Assembly: GCA_001600175.1 (NCBI GenBank)
Contig: BCJC01000006.1
Span: forward strand, 945,968-1,009,967
Reading direction: 5' to 3'
DNA from: Erythrobasidium yunnanense
Lineage: Eukaryota; Basidiomycota; Cystobasidiomycetes; Erythrobasidiales; Erythrobasidiaceae
Length of the DNA stretch: 64,000 nt
The notes under the pieces: generated by a model
Databases searched by the model: none
The model's input: only the letters and a program-made list of their open reading frames with translations
Told to the model about the DNA's origin: nothing
Position numbers and translations under genes: made by a program
In this document: positions 13,654 through 34,925 of the stretch, in pieces
Layout of the letters: the number at the start of each line of letters is the position of its first letter
Numbering within the stretch: the first letter of the stretch is position 1

Positions 13654-14928
13654 TTACGCAGCGCTCGATAGGGAAGACACAATTATGCCGTACCAATGCT
13701 TGATGACGTGGTATTCTAGGTACACGAAGGACCCGAAGACAAGCCAATTGGCTACAGTGAACCAGCAGAGTTCCGCATCGGAAGCTTGTTCCTCCCGAGT
13801 TCGTACTTCTTCAACGACTCTTATGCGCTCAAGCAATCGGATGAAGGCGAGGTGCAGAAATACCCCACCTCCCGTCAGAAGTCTGACGCATGCCATCAAA
13901 GGCCAGAGATGTATCTTCACTGACATGCGCAATATTGCCATACCCCGGGAAGAACTTGGCCTCTCTGACCAGGAGTATATTCCCGTGGCTATCAGAGCAG
14001 GCACCGATGAGACGAGTCGTACAAGAACAGGCCGCAATGGAATGGGTAGAGGTCGTGGGTTCGCCGATAGAATTGGGTCATGAGGCAGGTCTTTCACTGT
14101 AGTGCGTAAGAGGGCAGGGTTTGAAGTCCGTTCCGATGCCTTTTGCCTTTCTTCCGCAATGGCCTTAAGGCGGTCCTGCTCCTTTCTCTCGCGATCCTCC
14201 TGTAATTGCTTAGCGAAAGCTTCTCGTTGCCGCTGAGATGCTGATTTAGCATTGGTAGTCTTCGAGCTACGCGACCGAGGAGGACTACGGTGCAGGGGTG
14301 CCATCACTTCAGTCGAAGTATTTTCAGGCTGTGAAGGGGTTTCTTCAGCGGGCGCCTGCAAGGCTGGAAAGAGCTCTTGTAAGGGAGGTAGAGGACTGCC
14401 ATGTGCTGCACTGTTTAGAATGATCAGCATGAGGCGGTCACCGTGGATTCTGTTGCCGCCGACTTACAAGAGCTCGTCCAGCACATCTTTGGCGTGATTG
14501 ACGTCCTTCAACCGCTTCTCGGCCTTTTTATCACGGTGGAGCTCAGCACGCGGTTTCAACGCAGCGCATTGCTCGATCCAGAGAGTCCGGATAGTCTCAG
14601 GGTCGGCTTTCTCGTCTGGGTGGAGTCTGAAGATCTTGTATGCGCCCACAGCGGCGTCATGACTGACTTCGTAGCAGCGTGCGGACGCGTGGAAGGATCT
14701 GTAAATGATGTATTAGCCAGCAATTTGTATTTCAGATTACTGAAAGCCAGCAGCTACTTACCGGCGTAGCCTCGTCCCTAGAGCATTGAAACGTTGTATC
14801 CGAGAGCCGACGAAGCGAGCTTGATGAGCACAGCAGGGCTTCGATACCGTCGCTACAGCGGCCCCGACTTCGTTGAAATTGAAGATGCCAGAATTGAGAC
14901 GTGGGACAAGTCTCGAGAAGACAGCCAT
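13654..14928 (-). CDS. mitochondrial J-like protein A, HPD-less, with C-terminal membrane segments
   Basis: Three exons (14928-14762, 14698-14468, 14410-13654) join in phase to give 384 residues. The presequence starts MAVFSRLVPRLNSGIF and ends LRRSFHASAR, a classic mitochondrial targeting and processing pattern. Exon 2 carries a J-like domain (about residues 71-132): AYKIFRLHP, helix II with TLWIEQCAALKPR, then KRLKDVNHAKDVLDEL. Where a J-domain has His-Pro-Asp this one has Lys-Pro-Arg, so it should not stimulate Hsp70. The third exon encodes a proline-rich linker, a charged coiled coil (QREAFAKQLQEDRERKEQD) and two hydrophobic segments near residues 300-325 and 347-368. It is first from the left of five tandem paralogues (A-E) with the same intron layout. 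Function is unknown; a role at the mitochondrial inner membrane is inferred only from signals. Confidence 0.75.
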
Positions 14929-15474
14929 TAGGCAGTATCGCTTCTTCAACCTGCTTTCATAGATGAACAATGCATCTAGAAGACCAGCTTGACTTTGGGT
15001 ATGACGGTGGTCGTGCTTTGACGGCAAAGTCTGCTCCTCATCTCTTCGCGATTTTCACGAACAAAAGAGAGTGCCTGGCTACCAAGTCGTGTCGTGTAAG
15101 TCACCAGCAGCTGGGAGAAATTGACCCAACTCGCTGGGGACATAAAGTATTGACATGAGAAGCAAAGCTGCAAGTCAGAAACCCGTCGCCGTTGATAAAG
15201 CAGGTTCGTAATAACCTCTGTCGCGCTAGACTTGCTGCCATCGGGCTACTGCCTCACATTATGTATGGTCTAGTTTCCAAGATCCGGGGCTAGGACACGC
15301 TGTACGATCAGATCTATAGCAGTCTCGGTAGTACGAACTGGCAAAACATCCAAAATGAAAAGAGAATTCCTTCGTAGGACCAGAACCGTGGTGTTTCATC
15401 TCCTTCTAGAGGGCGAGGCGGAGGTTCCCATCGGGTCTCTCGTGGAGGCGGTACGCGAGGTTTGCGAGTTTCGC

Positions 15475-16174
15475 TTATTGGATGTGCGGTCGCATGTGCA
15501 GCCCAATGTTGCTGTGTTGTCTCATTGTACTTGTGCCCATGAGTGAACGCAGCTTGAACTTTGCTATGCTTGTGATTCGCAACAGGCCGCATCTGTTATG
15601 CACCGGTCCCGCTTTGGCAGAGGATGAAGGTAGAGGTAGAGGGTCCACCAGCGCAGGTATCGTATCATGGTGCATTGCTCTATTCATGATAATAGTCAGC
15701 TCTGCCCTGCTCACTCAGCAACGGTTATCACGAACGAAAGCTTCTTCAGATCATCATGTGCAGCATTGGCATTCTGCATGCGCCTCAAAGCATTCGGATC
15801 CCGGTGAACATCAATGCGTGGTTTGAGGTTTGCACATTCGTCCAGCCAGCGGTGCTTAATGATAGCGTAAGACAGTGCCTTATCAAGGGGCAGACCTAGA
15901 GCCCTGCACGCGGCGATAGCTTTATCACGATCCAAGACAGACATTTGACATCGTCGTGAATGGTGGGAGTAGGATCTGTGTGATGGCAAGTTTCAGCTTA
16001 CAGAGTTACGGGGGATGGTCTATCGAGATCCCAGACAGCTTACCGTGTAGCTAAAGCAGCTGAGCACCGATCTATCCGTAGATGTGCACCGCTGTGGTAA
16101 GTACGTAGCCATCGTATTGATGAAGCCGGGGTGGGGTGTGAGAGGAAGGAAGTCCGCTTGAGAGTGAGGAGCAT
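15475..16174 (-). CDS. mitochondrial J-like protein B, HPD-less
   Basis: Exons 16174-16044, 15975-15736 and 15679-15475 join in phase for about 191 residues. The presequence begins MLLTLKRTSFLSHPTPASSI and continues with Arg but little acid, ending ATRSYSHHSRRCQ, as expected for a mitochondrial import signal. The second exon (240 bases) has the J-like domain: ACRALGLPLDKA, YAIIKHRWLDECANLKPR, RRMQNANAAHDDLKKL. It is the closest relative of A in this array, sharing the C-A-x-L-K-P-R pattern in helix II and a nearby H-R-D. The last exon shares only a loose proline/leucine pattern (DTIPALVDPLPLP) with siblings. The 3' end is uncertain: another open frame at 15592-15314 ends in a hydrophobic segment, EGILFSFWMFCQFVLPRLL, and could be the true C terminus under different splicing. 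Confidence 0.68.
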
Positions 16175-16539
16175 GGATGGTCAGAGGGAGGATGTTTGAG
16201 CAATGGACAGCAGTCTCTTTGTTCGTATGAAAAGCTTTAGAGTGCTCGGACGGCAGTCCATTGCCCCCGTCTTTTCAGTTTTTCTCAACAATAGGGCGAT
16301 CAGTTTCTTTTGGGCTTTCTTGTAGGCGATGTTGTCGTTCCTGGAAGGTAGTGATGGCATGCTATCATAGACACCTGTCATCTCGTCAGTCGATGTTATT
16401 TCTCATCGGCGAGAGCTAACACGCAAGTCCTGATCACAGCAGTTGCCGCGAGTTTGTGGATGGGCTTTAGCGAAGCCAGAATATCGTACAACACTTTTGA
16501 AGAATGCCTGGCTGAACGAAGCTTAGATCCCCATTCATC
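16175..16539. other. spacer between J-like genes B and C
   Basis: About 365 bases between the stop of gene C and the start of gene B. It must hold the promoter of B and the 3' end of C. Two minus-strand open stretches (around 16530-16390 and 16381-16181) have no convincing start, splice sites or J-like motif. They could be remnants of another copy or untranslated sequence, and I cannot decide. Confidence 0.4.
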
Positions 16540-17352
16540 CTACGAGCGTGAGCGCAGAGCACTAATAACATCGAGGGCAAAGAACGCCACCGGCGCAAGG
16601 TCCGCCATGGTATGAAGACCTTCTTGGCTGTCGACCTGTGGTGAGCGGCGGTCGACCGTCTCTGACCCTTCCACCCGCGCCGGCTGCATCGGAATGCTTC
16701 GGCTTCCTCCTTTCGAGGCGACCTGACGGCCAGCTTCTGCTGCAGTCGAAGCGTTATAGGCTTCCAATAGACGACAACCTGTGTCGAAGACCCCCATAAG
16801 CACTTTTGCTTGCGCTTGCATCCCCAGCGCCGCGGTACCATCGCCGGCAGTAAGGGTCTCTATTCCATGTGCAGTGTGCGAGACGTTGTTCGAGATAGAA
16901 GAGGAACCTGTCAGAGGCGGAATTACGCCGTCGCGAAGTGTACTGTCCAAGTCTTTCAGTCAAAAGCTCGCGCATGGGTAGCCACAGGCGATGACTTACG
17001 AAAGCTGTTTGAGATCGTAATGCGCTGTATGGACATCCTTCAAGTGCTTCAGTACCCCCGCGGTTCCTTTGCTATCATTTATAGCCTGCTCCATCAGCCT
17101 TGAGCTTGCTTTCAGCCAGTGGTTTCTGAAGGTTTCGTATGGCACTTCTTCGTATGAAGGCAGATTCAGTATATGGTATGCTCTGATGGCTGCATCGCGC
17201 TGGTCTGGTTGCAAACCAGAGCTGTTCGAGTGCATCTGTCGATATGATCAGCAAACCGCCTGTCTTAAGTTTATAACGCTGGCTCTCACCGGTAACCTTG
17301 CAAGGCTAGAGGAACTTGTCGTTGAACTTGCGTATATCCTGTATGTAAACAT
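16540..17352 (-). CDS. mitochondrial J-like protein C, HPD-less
   Basis: Exons 17352-17290, 17235-17000 and 16942-16540 give 233 residues. The N terminus MFTYRIYASSTTSSSSLARL is Ser/Thr-rich with Arg and no acid, fitting a mitochondrial signal. The J-like domain (residues about 30-98) has AIRAYHILNLPSYEEVPYET, then NHWLKASSRLMEQ and LKDVHTAHYDLKQLS. The HPD position reads Met-Glu-Gln, the most degenerate of the set. The first intron is in phase 0 rather than phase 2 as in the other four, while the second sits at the same domain edge and phase. The third exon starts TLRDGVIPPLTGSSS, sharing the proline-leucine stretch seen in B and D, and includes a moderately hydrophobic end (MADLAPVAFFALDVISAL). 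Function unknown. Confidence 0.7.
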
Positions 17353-17435
17353 GATACTGCTCGGGTCTGCCTTGCACTCGCAGAGATGGTGCCGGATAGC
17401 GTTTGCTTGATGCGATGGAAGGACATCACTTGCCT

Positions 17436-17806
17436 TCAGGTAATGACAGATGCGATATCAAGCAGAGTACTTTTGATGGTAGCGATAGCTGAGTGCACAG
17501 ACGGCAATTGACTGCCCTCCTCCTTGAGCCAGTTTTAACAATAGCGTAATCTGCCCTTTGTAACGTGGACAGGGCAGTCCTGCTGGTTTCTAAGAAGCAT
17601 CTGTATTGTGGGATGCCGGAAGCTCATCGTATACGACGCGCGGAGATGCATCGCTGGTTAGTGCTGTCGAAAGGCGTTTCTCGAAGTCGGAACAGTCGCA
17701 AAGTCGAGGTTCCTATACGTGAGCAATGAGTGCAACAGTACCACTCGATTGTTCCACATGCGCAAGCTTGTGCCGCGGCGCTGCTACCGAATACAGTGAT
17801 AGACAA
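17436..17806 (-). pseudogene. decayed J-like copy between genes C and D
   Basis: The minus strand between D and C still shows pieces of the J-like family. Codons for DYAIVK match YAIIK of gene B, and directly after them NWLKEEGSQLP matches HWLKASSRLM of gene C. The two pieces lie in different frames, with a stop codon between them in the second frame. An upstream piece reads RCISARR, reminiscent of the FHASAR processing site of the siblings. The helix I segment is not readable in a single frame. I read this as an old tandem copy that lost function, not a gene. Confidence 0.5.
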
Positions 17807-17874
17807 GAGCCGACTGAAGTGTGGTGTTTCTTCCGTCCGTGGGGTTCTACACCAGCTTCTAATGCAGCATGTCC

Positions 17875-18851
17875 TTATCCTGCCCGATCTTGTGCTTCAG
17901 GCTTGTGCTTCATCCAGTCAATGACTGTCCTAAAGAACCACTGCTTTGGCGACAGGACGGAAGAGCCCGTTCGGCGATTTTCTATCTCGGTCTGCCTCTG
18001 TTCTGCTATCATCTGTCGAGTATACCATCAGACACACACGCACACATGTCAGCTATTAGACTGAGCTCACCTTCTTTCTAATCGTAGTCTGAAGCATGCT
18101 CGCCAGTATTCGCTCGGCTTGTGTCGGACCTGCTACCTTGGCTGTTTGGATAACAGCCCTTCTGGTTCGTGTAGAGGCCGACTTGACCGCTGTAGCTTTG
18201 ACTTCCTGCTGTGCTGACCGCAAGCGCTCCTCGTTGCGCTTGCTGGACCGCTTAGCTGCTTTCCGGAATCCTCGCGAGAGCGCATCTCTCCCGGTCGCAT
18301 ATGTAGTAGCTTTTTTCACGGAGTTCTTAGGCTGCGGCGGCTCTGAGAGGTTAGAGGGGGACGCTTGTGCTCGGGTCGGTGGAGGGCACAATGGAGGCAG
18401 GGGGTCGGAACGTGTGTTGGTAGGACTGTAGAATATGTAAGTAATCACATAGCGAGCAGCGTGCAGAGTATACAAGCTGAAAACGGATTACTCACTACAA
18501 GCTTTCAATATCATCCACAAACGCGTTGACCCTTTGCATCTCATCGTTAGCCTCCGTGTTTTGCTGAATCAGGAGAGGCTGGAGCCTTAGAGCTATCGCT
18601 CTGCGTCGTTCTTTCACAGTTTCCCAAGGCACATAAACTGTTAGCGGCAAATCCAGGGCTTTGTATGCTGTCTTGAGGTGAGCCAGCTTCGATGGGCTGT
18701 GGTAGCTCCTGAAGGACGCGGAGGACGGCAGGCAGCTGTGGTTGTCTCTGTCAGTTTGCGTTGATCTAAGGCTTCTAGATCATCCAGCCAACCGGCGCCA
18801 AGCAGCCAGCGAAGCGAAGTGTCGTCCGCTTTCCTGACATCGACATAGCAT
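17875..18851 (-). CDS. mitochondrial J-like protein D, HPD-less, basic C-terminal region
   Basis: Four exons (18851-18793, 18735-18496, 18425-18071, 18012-17875) join in phase for 263 residues. The presequence MLCRCQESGRHFASLAAWRR leads to SASFRSYHSPS, matching the processing-site region of A and B. The second exon is 240 bases, the same as in B, and holds the J-like domain: AYKALDLPLTVYVPWETVKE, RRRAIALRLQPLL, RVNAFVDDIESL. The HPD position is Gln-Pro-Leu. The third exon opens with TRSDPLPPLCPPPTRAQ and becomes very basic (KKATTYATGRD, RGFRKAAKRSSKRNEERLRS), a stretch that could bind nucleic acid or acidic lipid (inference only). The last exon adds VLSPKQWFFRTVIDWMKHKP. The consistent exon phases argue for a living gene. 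Confidence 0.72.
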
Positions 18852-18861
18852 GACGAGGCGT

Positions 18862-19161
18862 TCCAAAGCTTCTGTATTTATAATGTACCAGCGAGTTAGG
18901 AGCAGGTGGGAGAGCGGAGGGCACACTGCTTGGACAGCGCGGCGTCTTTCTGGCATCTCAACAATCGCAACAAAAGGACTCTGCCGGCAAAGCTGTTCCG
19001 CGTTACGTGCTGCTTGTCTTATGGAAGCTCAATGTTTTCTTCAATGCTGAACGGTTTTCGAGGATCACCAGGCTGATGCGATCCAGGCTTCTCAGCGTTC
19101 GAAGCTCCATTGTCGAGCCAGCGCCATTAAGAGCAAGCATCGAAGAACGGCGAAAACACAT
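18862..19161 (-). pseudogene. decayed or unresolved J-like copy between genes D and E
   Basis: Minus-strand sequence starting at ATG 19161 reads MCFRRSSMLALNGAGSTMEL, basic and hydroxyl-rich like the sibling presequences, and reaches LSFHKTSST, which resembles RSFHASAR of gene A. That frame then stops. In the next frame follow NAEQLCRQSPF and MPERRRAVQAVCPPLSHL, clearly like VKERRRAIALRLQPLLIQ of gene D. The two halves are not joined by a convincing intron. It looks like another tandem duplicate that has decayed, and its 3' end runs into the start of gene D. A spliced gene with unusual sites cannot be excluded. Confidence 0.45.
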
Positions 19162-19284
19162 AGCTTGGTCGTTTCTGTAAGAGATTTGACGGTTTGCCCA
19201 TGGAAGCCAGCATGGCCAGTACTCGACCGAAGCAAAAGGACCGTCCCGCAAATCAACTCCAAGACAGTCAAGACCGCTATCTAC

Positions 19285-20371
19285 CTAGAACGTATCAAGA
19301 GCAATATAGCTCTCTCCGTGTCGTATTTCAGTCGAGATCTGGGCACAACTCCCGTCTGTAGAAGCCCAAGCTATGCACCTTCGCTGGAGCGTCTCTTTCG
19401 AATATCCTCCATCTCCTGTTGCTGCAGCACGATCTGGGAAAATCTGAGTCAACGGAACATGCCCGACGGTAGAAGGGGGGCGCTTCACGTTATCCTGCAT
19501 CTTGATCAGCTTGTTCTGCAACTTGATAAGCTTGTCCTGCAAGTCTTGTAAGGCGTTCTTAAGAATGCGGTTCTGCATTTCCTGCTCTACAGCCTTTTTT
19601 ATGCTTGATTCCTGCTCGGTAGCAGGTTTTCTACCTTCTTCTAACGCCGGCTGGACTTGCGTAAAGACCTGTGCCCGTTCCGCTAGCTTAGCCCTGGCAG
19701 GCACTGTCGCGCAGCGTGGCTCTTTGCCCGCTGCCAGCTTCTGTATGAGCTCCTCGATTACATTGTCGCACTGTGTTGCAGCTGCGGCGCTTTTGCAAGG
19801 GGAAGCGGCGGCACAAGGTATGCGAGGAGAAACCGAAGCTGAAGGGAGCGAGAGCTTTGCGCTAGGTGCAGCAGAAGAATCGTTGTGCATGTTCTCCAAG
19901 ATCGTCCGCAAGGGCGCGAATGTGCCGGGTGACTGAGGTTCCACAAGCTTGCTGAAATCCGTATATGTCAGCATTGCAAAGCTAAAAAGCCAAGCAGCCT
20001 CGTAAACTCACAATATCCTTTGTATTACGCTCGTAAACCCCTTCACGGCTTGTATCTTAGCGCCTGCTGATGCGACGCCCATGCTAGCTTTAGGCTGATA
20101 CTGCTTTATCAAGCTTCGCTGTCGCTCCTCGAGCATCTTGATCGTGATAGATTGCCTAGTGGGAAGTCCTAGGTATGCATAGGCAGCAAAAGCTTCGGCT
20201 CTACTGGGCAGATTGGACTTCGCTTCAAACGGGGTGTGCGAGAGATGACTACGAGCGCGAAAGAGACCAAGATCAGTGGGTTATGGTGGAAGGTTAGCAT
20301 GTGTCTTCAGCCAGCTACCGGAGAGCGCTCAATCTTCGCACAAAGCATCCGCGCTTATGCCAGATCAACAT
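19285..20371 (-). CDS. mitochondrial J-like protein E, HPD-less, with C-terminal coiled coil
   Basis: Exons 20371-20319, 20248-20012 and 19951-19285 join in phase for 318 residues. The short presequence MLIWHKRGCFVRRLSALRHL is basic with no acid. The J-like exon (237 bases) reads AEAFAAYAYLGLPTRQSI, LEERQRSLIKQYQPKASMG, VKGFTSVIQRI; the HPD position is Gln-Pro-Lys. The third exon starts KLVEPQSPGTFAPLRTILEN, passes through an alanine/serine-rich linker and then forms a coiled coil with an internal near-repeat (LQDKLIKLQNKLIKMQDN), suggesting self-association. The tail TEIRHGESYIALDTF matches nothing I know. It is the most upstream gene of the tandem array, and the SET-Tad3 gene follows on the same strand. 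Function unknown. Confidence 0.72.
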
Positions 20372-33812: not shown

Positions 33813-34406
33813 TGCTTTGATTGCCTCGGCAAGCTCGCGTGCATGTTGTACAATGAGTGTAGCTCTTGTACTTTTACGTGTAACCGAACATACAGATTAG
33901 CCCTCCAATGCAGGCTCTTGCACTTAGGACTATTATGTAGTAGGTCTGCAAGCCGTCGAACCTGAACAATGCTTTGACTCCGGCTTCAGTTAAGCACCAG
34001 TCATCTGCCTTTCTACGGAGCGCCTTGGCTGTCAGTCTTGCCTTGCGCAATCAATTCTCAATCATGCCCTCCAACAAATCGCATATCATTCAGCTGAATT
34101 TCCCAAGTATCATGTGTTCTCAAGAGCATGGCTCTCCACCGGATCCGTGGGGATTTCAATTCTCTTCCCGCTTGAACTGCACAAGCGATGAAGGACATCA
34201 AGCGCCATCTGAAAGGGACGCGGGTCAAAGCAGGCGGCCGTATGTCCTTTCGCATTACTGATTGACTAGAATGTAAAAGCGTAGCCGCTCTGCTACAGCT
34301 GACCTCTTCTCTTACCGACGCAAGCTGCATCCAGAAAAGCACAGAAGCCTAGGCGCAGGCTTTGCATAGTCGACACCCACCCCATTCACGAACTCCAGCA
34401 GCTACC
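33813..34406. other. spacer between secreted-protein copies 2 and 3
   Basis: About 590 bases. Only short open frames without family features were found. The last 60 bases before copy 3 resemble the leader of copy 2 (CCAGCAGC before the ATG), as expected from a duplication that included upstream sequence. Confidence 0.4.
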
Positions 34407-34925
34407 ATGATATCCACCCTCCTCAAGATGCTCCTAGTATCGGCAGCCTTGTTAGCTGGTATTCGGCTCTGCGACGCGACCGAGGCGGAACAAGCTCTAT
34501 ACTATTCTGACTGGGTCCCTAATGGGTGCAGCAACGAGATGACAGAGTCTGTCTTTGAAAACGAGAACGACGTTCAGTACTTCTATAGGACTTGTCAGTG
34601 CAAAGGCGGCAACACTTGCAATTTGCGAGCGCAGTCCCAAACGGAGTTCAAAGAGTCAGTAGGTATACCCCATACTGACAACCTCGTCCTGACAGTACTC
34701 TTTTTTTTACCAGCCGCTGCGCACAGTGCTCAGGCAAAGTGCAGGGTGGTTTCGTGGATGGCTACCCGACCGCGTACTGGCATTGTGGCTCGGGAGGACG
34801 CATTGGCTTCAGGGAGTGCAAGGTAGGTGTGCTTTACCATGCTGCTAACCTGACTAGCTGAGATGCATGTATAGAACGGCTGCGTCGATAACCCAGATGG
34901 AACGACCGTTAACTGTTATAACTGA
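34407..34925 (+). CDS. small secreted cysteine-rich protein 3
   Basis: Three exons in phase encode a signal peptide (MISTLLKMLLVSAALLAGIR) and a mature protein with SDWVPNGCSNEMTESVFENE, DDVQYFYRTCQCKGG-type sequence (here NDVQYFYRTCQCKGG), then NTCNLRAQSQTEFKD, RCAQCSGKVQGGFVDG, YWHCGSGGRIGFRECK and NGCVDNPDGTTVNCYN, for about ten Cys. The last exon after ECK is very short. The paired Cys and small size suggest a disulfide-stabilised extracellular protein. It shares more sequence with copy 2 than with copy 1, so copies 2 and 3 are the younger duplication. A role as an effector or surface protein is only a possibility. Confidence 0.8.

Follow-up and report, generated by a model that had tools for sequence, protein, structure and literature searches.

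A tandem array of five HPD-less J-like genes, predicted to be mitochondrial, in Erythrobasidium yunnanense

Five tandem genes and their models

The DNA analysed here, referred to as the window, is a stretch of 64,000 nucleotides (contig C6, BCJC01000006.1, positions 945968-1009967) from the 20.9-Mb, 10-contig genome of the basidiomycete Erythrobasidium yunnanense. Within it, five genes, here called A to E, are arranged head-to-tail on the minus strand. All five follow a common plan, in which a leader exon is followed by an entire J-like domain held in one exon and then by an unrelated tail, and in none of them does the domain carry the His-Pro-Asp (HPD) motif at its usual position. A first-pass annotation, made from the sequence, had placed the genes at the limits listed below, and at these limits every model is open and spliceable. 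The tandem, open arrangement is confirmed, and so are the domain exon lengths of 231-240 bases given in that annotation, with a shorter alternative in D. Its description of a single last exon after the domain holds for A, B, C and E, but fails for D, which has four exons, two of them behind the domain. In the list, positions are those of the window, exons run in the order of transcription, and the letters in brackets after each domain are the residues found at the aligned HPD position.

13654..14928, minus strand: gene A, 384 amino acids, three exons (14928-14762, 14698-14468, 14410-13654); leader, J-like domain (KPR), and a tail with a charged coiled-coil-like stretch and two membrane-span-like segments
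14468..14698, minus strand: J-like domain exon of A, 231 nucleotides
15475..16174, minus strand: gene B, 191 amino acids, three exons (16174-16044, 15975-15736, 15679-15475); leader, J-like domain (KPR) and a short basic tail
15736..15975, minus strand: J-like domain exon of B, 240 nucleotides
16540..17352, minus strand: gene C, 233 amino acids, three exons (17352-17290, 17235-17000, 16942-16540); leader, J-like domain (MEQ), and a tail with one C-terminal membrane-span-like segment
17000..17235, minus strand: J-like domain exon of C, 236 nucleotides, entered in phase 0
17875..18851, minus strand: gene D, 262 amino acids (alternatively 253), four exons (18851-18793, 18735-18499 or 18708-18499, 18425-18071, 18012-17875); leader, J-like domain (QPL) and a basic tail
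18499..18735, minus strand: J-like domain exon of D, 237 nucleotides; with the alternative acceptor, 18708-18499, 210 nucleotides
19285..20371, minus strand: gene E, 318 amino acids, three exons (20371-20319, 20248-20012, 19951-19285); leader, J-like domain (QPK), and a long tail with a coiled-coil-like stretch
20012..20248, minus strand: J-like domain exon of E, 237 nucleotides

All 11 introns of the array are of the GT-AG type and measure 54-84 nucleotides, and a CTRAY-like branch site can be seen by eye in most of them. The first intron of D has two possible acceptors, giving an intron of either 57 or 84 nucleotides, the 57-nucleotide version being closer to the remaining introns of the array. 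Domain exons are entered in phase 2 in A, B, D and E and in phase 0 in C, and all five are left in phase 2, as had been noted at first pass. In the first intron of C (17236-17289), the bases immediately 5' of the acceptor can still be read as S-Y-R-Q in frame with the domain, which would fit a downstream shift of the acceptor. The intergenic gaps along the array are 546, 365, 522 and 433 bases, and no 8-mer is common to the 250 bases upstream of at least three of the five genes. By codon usage, the read frame is the best-scoring of the three in every domain exon (with the shorter exon used for D) and in the third exons of A, C and E; it is tied in the third exon of B, and it is not the best in either the third or the fourth exon of D.

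A diverged family with a J-type profile and no HPD

The domain exons of A to E are homologous to one another, with identities to A of 15-37%. When the whole genome was queried, the A domain found B at E 1.4e-8 and C at 0.054, the B domain found A at E 7.2e-9 (36% identity) and C at 0.0011, and the C domain found B at E 0.006 and A at 0.12; the D and E domains each recovered only themselves. In profile comparisons, hhalign gave a probability of 90.6 for an ABC profile against D and of 80.4 for an ABCD profile against E, with 54.1 for D against E and 28.8 for ABC against E. In each comparison that was run against shuffles, namely A-B, B-C, ABC-D, ABC-E, D-E and ABCD-E, all 60 column shuffles stayed below the observed hhalign score. 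At the DNA level, B and C are 70% identical across a 61-nucleotide stretch covering helix III and the splice donor. The array probably arose through duplication in tandem, after which the copies diverged strongly.

No further copies were recovered from the genome, in that the five single-domain queries and a consensus query built from all five (which recovered A-D and missed E) returned only members of the array, apart from one match at E 0.456. This match was considered as an extra copy and rejected, as it reads by eye as a ubiquitin-specific protease. A five-member hidden Markov model, run against the window and 10 kb on each side of it, found the five genes and otherwise nothing better than E 0.13. 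Queries of a large protein collection with A, with the five full-length proteins and with the five domains (E limits of 10, 1 and 1, respectively) gave no homologue; the collection may be poor in spliced fungal proteins and the search had no positive control, so absence elsewhere does not follow.

The family profile, built from the five-row alignment of the array domains, is clearly related in sequence to J domains. Against a reference profile made from six J domains of this genome, it gave an hhalign p of 4.9e-7 and a probability of 92.5, a result reached by none of 100 column shuffles. The two halves of the family behave alike: ABC alone scored 31.0 against a shuffle maximum of 15.9, and DE alone scored 26.7 against a maximum of 14.1, with 0 of 100 shuffles reaching either score. 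Taken singly, the domains of A and D (0/100 each) and of E (0/60) also lie above their shuffles. A PDB profile search with the family profile returned 12 matches at E up to 10, and the top ten of these, at E 0.061-1.2, are chains of J proteins. Seven of these ten are named DnaJ, two 'Curved DNA-binding protein' and one 'HCG3 gene', and we take the latter three to be J proteins as well; the last two of the 12 are 'sohair' (E 2.7) and eIF3A (6.1). The Pfam DnaJ model (PF00226) matches the domain exon of A at E=0.0029 with 18.1 bits, under its curated cut-off of 27.8, covering profile positions 3-54 in the standard register, and NCBIfam gives a single weak DnaJ match, which also falls on A (one of the five; E 0.069).

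The features that the array shares with PF00226 domains are helix I (A-Y-x-x-L-x-L), helix II with equal spacing to the loop proline, and helix III, along with an HPD that is altered as in the type IV proteins described in the available text of PMC13254874. The helix I pattern proposed at first pass, A-[YC]-x-x-[LF]-x-L-[PH], fits all five members; the spacing from the start of helix II to the loop proline is, by eye, identical to that of J domains; the loop proline is kept in four of the five, and helix III is kept. The array differs from ordinary J domains in staying under the Pfam cut-off, in standing five in tandem, and in having mitochondria-type leaders and unrelated tails.

At the aligned HPD position the residues are KPR, KPR, MEQ, QPL and QPK from A to E, exactly as first read, and HPD is absent in all five. 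Because both His and Asp are gone at this position, HPD-dependent stimulation of Hsp70 by the array proteins is unlikely. Such HPD-deviant, or 'type IV', J proteins are already known, and a 2026 review calls it enigmatic, in the text available, whether accident or selection lies behind their deviations (PMC13254874). As a family profile, the array belongs to this type, an assignment that is weak for B, C and E singly; the earlier description of the genes as J-like and HPD-less is thereby upheld, if unevenly from member to member. A literal H-P-D does occur in A, at residues 82-84 (14614-14622) in the helix I-II loop, 22 residues ahead of the aligned HPD position, and could mislead motif scans. 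A register that places this string as the J motif was rejected, given that Pfam puts A in the standard register and that B-E have no such string.

Leaders, tails and known mitochondrial J proteins

Mitochondrial targeting of A to E is predicted from their leaders. Pooled, the first 30 residues of the five proteins contain 3 acidic residues, a number as low in only 11 of 20000 shuffles, and four of the five carry a cleavage-like motif where the domain exon begins or close to that point (R-S-F in A, R-S-Y in B and D, R-H-L in E). The pattern R-x-[FYL] ahead of the cut is the one left by MPP plus Icp55. No membrane-span-like window was found by hydropathy at any of the five N-termini. The location proposed in the first-pass annotation is a prediction; the pooled net charge of 17 is only mildly high, being equalled or exceeded in 1164 of 20000 shuffles, and belongs with the points against that are gathered below.

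Behind the domain the five proteins part ways. Hydropathy marks membrane-span-like segments in A (residues 256-279 and 303-326) and C (211-230), all downstream of the domain. Comparison of the tails with each other, in a library of five, showed no clear similarity (E no better than 0.11 for whole tails and 0.044 for a single stretch), and the only PDB matches to the A tail were designed proteins (E 0.28-0.58).

The first-pass annotation had suggested regulators of the Pam16/Tim16 type. On this view, each protein would pair with Pam18 or some other active J protein and hold it in check at the import motor. The HPD-less J-like domains, the predicted mitochondrial location and the membrane-span-like segments of A and C are consistent with this idea, and Pam16 itself is described, in the text available, as having no HPD and not stimulating mtHsp70 (PMC12953747). 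However, we consider it improbable that the array encodes such regulators, as no specific sequence support for them was found. No member of the array matches PF03656 (Pam16) in Pfam scans of full-length proteins and domain exons, and the array profile does not match the Pam16 of the same genome (hhalign probability 0.1), a test of low power in which that Pam16 also fails against the J profile (0.2). In addition, the membrane-span-like segments come after the domain, and yeast Pam16 has DKE at the HPD position according to the available text of PMC13254874, in contrast to the triplets of the array. Since an ordinary Pam16 gene (contig C3) and a Pam18-like HPD gene (contig C1; 88% identity over 41 residues to the query) are present elsewhere in the genome, the array is additional to the normal motor. 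Trypanosome TbPam16 and TbPam18 have inactive mitochondrial J domains and are proposed, in the text available, to act independently of heat shock proteins (PMC11349236). They are counterparts of Pam16 and Pam18, whereas no such relationship is established for the array.

A likeness in plan is offered by Mrj1 of Cryptococcus neoformans, a mitochondrial J protein confined to a narrow range of species, which has a leader, an internal J domain and a coiled coil and co-precipitates Qcr2 (PMC7373193, as far as its available text describes). The array proteins could help inner-membrane complexes, respiratory or other, to assemble or to stay stable, as HPD-less cousins of narrowly distributed proteins of this kind, and their broad plan, together with the narrow species range of Mrj1, would suit this explanation. 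We nevertheless regard it as unlikely. Mrj1 has and needs its HPD, in that its H111Q form, with His changed to Gln in the HPD, has a general growth defect like that of the deletion (PMC7373193, same text), while none of the five array members has an HPD at the aligned position, and their likeness to Mrj1 is one of plan. In a literature search that left subscription papers mostly outside its coverage, we recognised no paper on a tandem set of mitochondrial HPD-less J proteins.

A proposed docking family and its alternatives

We favour, with middling confidence, the reading that A to E form a family of type IV, HPD-less J proteins of mitochondria, used for docking independently of Hsp70 and each bearing a tail of its own. 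Each protein would be imported by an N-terminal presequence ending near the start of the domain exon, and the mature protein would then begin with a J-like domain unable to activate mtHsp70 through an HPD. This domain may dock onto mtHsp70, onto another J protein as its partner or onto a complex that is being assembled. Through their unrelated tails, which are membrane-span-like in A and C, coiled-coil-like in E and basic in B and D, the paralogues would each have a client or location of their own. Given that the domain is kept in five diverged copies and that the tails have no clear similarity, we infer that docking falls to the domain, with location and client determined by the tails.

Besides the mild leader charge, several observations weigh against this reading. 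Codon usage lends weak support to the genes (totals of 3.7, -4.9, 11.8, 1.5 and 10.2 bits from A to E) and favours the read frame of the first exon in A only, one of the five, so that the leader exons rest chiefly on splice signals and on the common pattern. As to J-type character, B and C alone lie within the shuffle range against the J profile (reached by 27 and 32 of 100 shuffles, respectively), and E alone has an hhalign probability of only 1.6. When the family profile was set against the six J sequences one at a time, two were matched (62.6 and 72.0) and four were not (0.3-1.7). Pfam finds no DnaJ match on the domain exons of B, C, D and E. With full-length proteins, it places the coiled-coil model LegC3_N (E 0.028) ahead of DnaJ (E 0.05) in A and returns no match at all for B, C and E.

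Some of these properties would also be expected of fast-evolving genes caught up in an arms race, be it a conflict between nucleus and mitochondria or a different one (over the control of mitochondrial inheritance, for example), with the J-like domain as a scaffold. The tandem array, the low identities of the domains to A, the dissimilar tails and the low codon-usage scores all speak for such genes. However, age and rate are inseparable without relatives, and no mating-type gene was recognised in the neighbourhood, where only six other open reading frames of the window were run against Pfam; we give this explanation a low probability. Alternatively, the genes could be former J proteins that now do little or nothing and are decaying as a cluster, which would likewise account for the loss of HPD in all five, the low codon-usage scores and the altered first intron of C. 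This seems very improbable, as the frames are open over 192-385 codons, the introns are GT-AG, and leader and domain are retained in every gene.

The Pfam scan assigned a domain to five of these six open reading frames. The array is flanked by a sulfatase-domain frame and a deaminase-domain frame, with SET-domain and GRASP-domain frames lying past the deaminase side. The deaminase-domain frame (PF00383; 20820-21809, minus strand) is directly upstream of E on the same strand and looks Tad3-like by eye. The frame at 34353-34826, on the plus strand, drew no match from Pfam at E 0.01, and by eye a hydrophobic run resembling a signal peptide can be seen close to its start.

Beyond the docking family favoured here, a broader proposal can be made, which we hold tentatively and think rather doubtful. 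In a family of mitochondrial proteins, a J domain may have been uncoupled from Hsp70 and amplified in tandem as a general docking module with different tails, making up a lineage-specific, chaperone-independent toolkit that is not derived from Pam16. HPD-less J proteins have been known one by one, and here five stand in tandem, none with HPD in place. That the leader and everything else in the domain are kept without HPD suggests that the domain has been retained for another reason, and the five copies provide a natural variant series for asking what the J fold does without Hsp70 activation.

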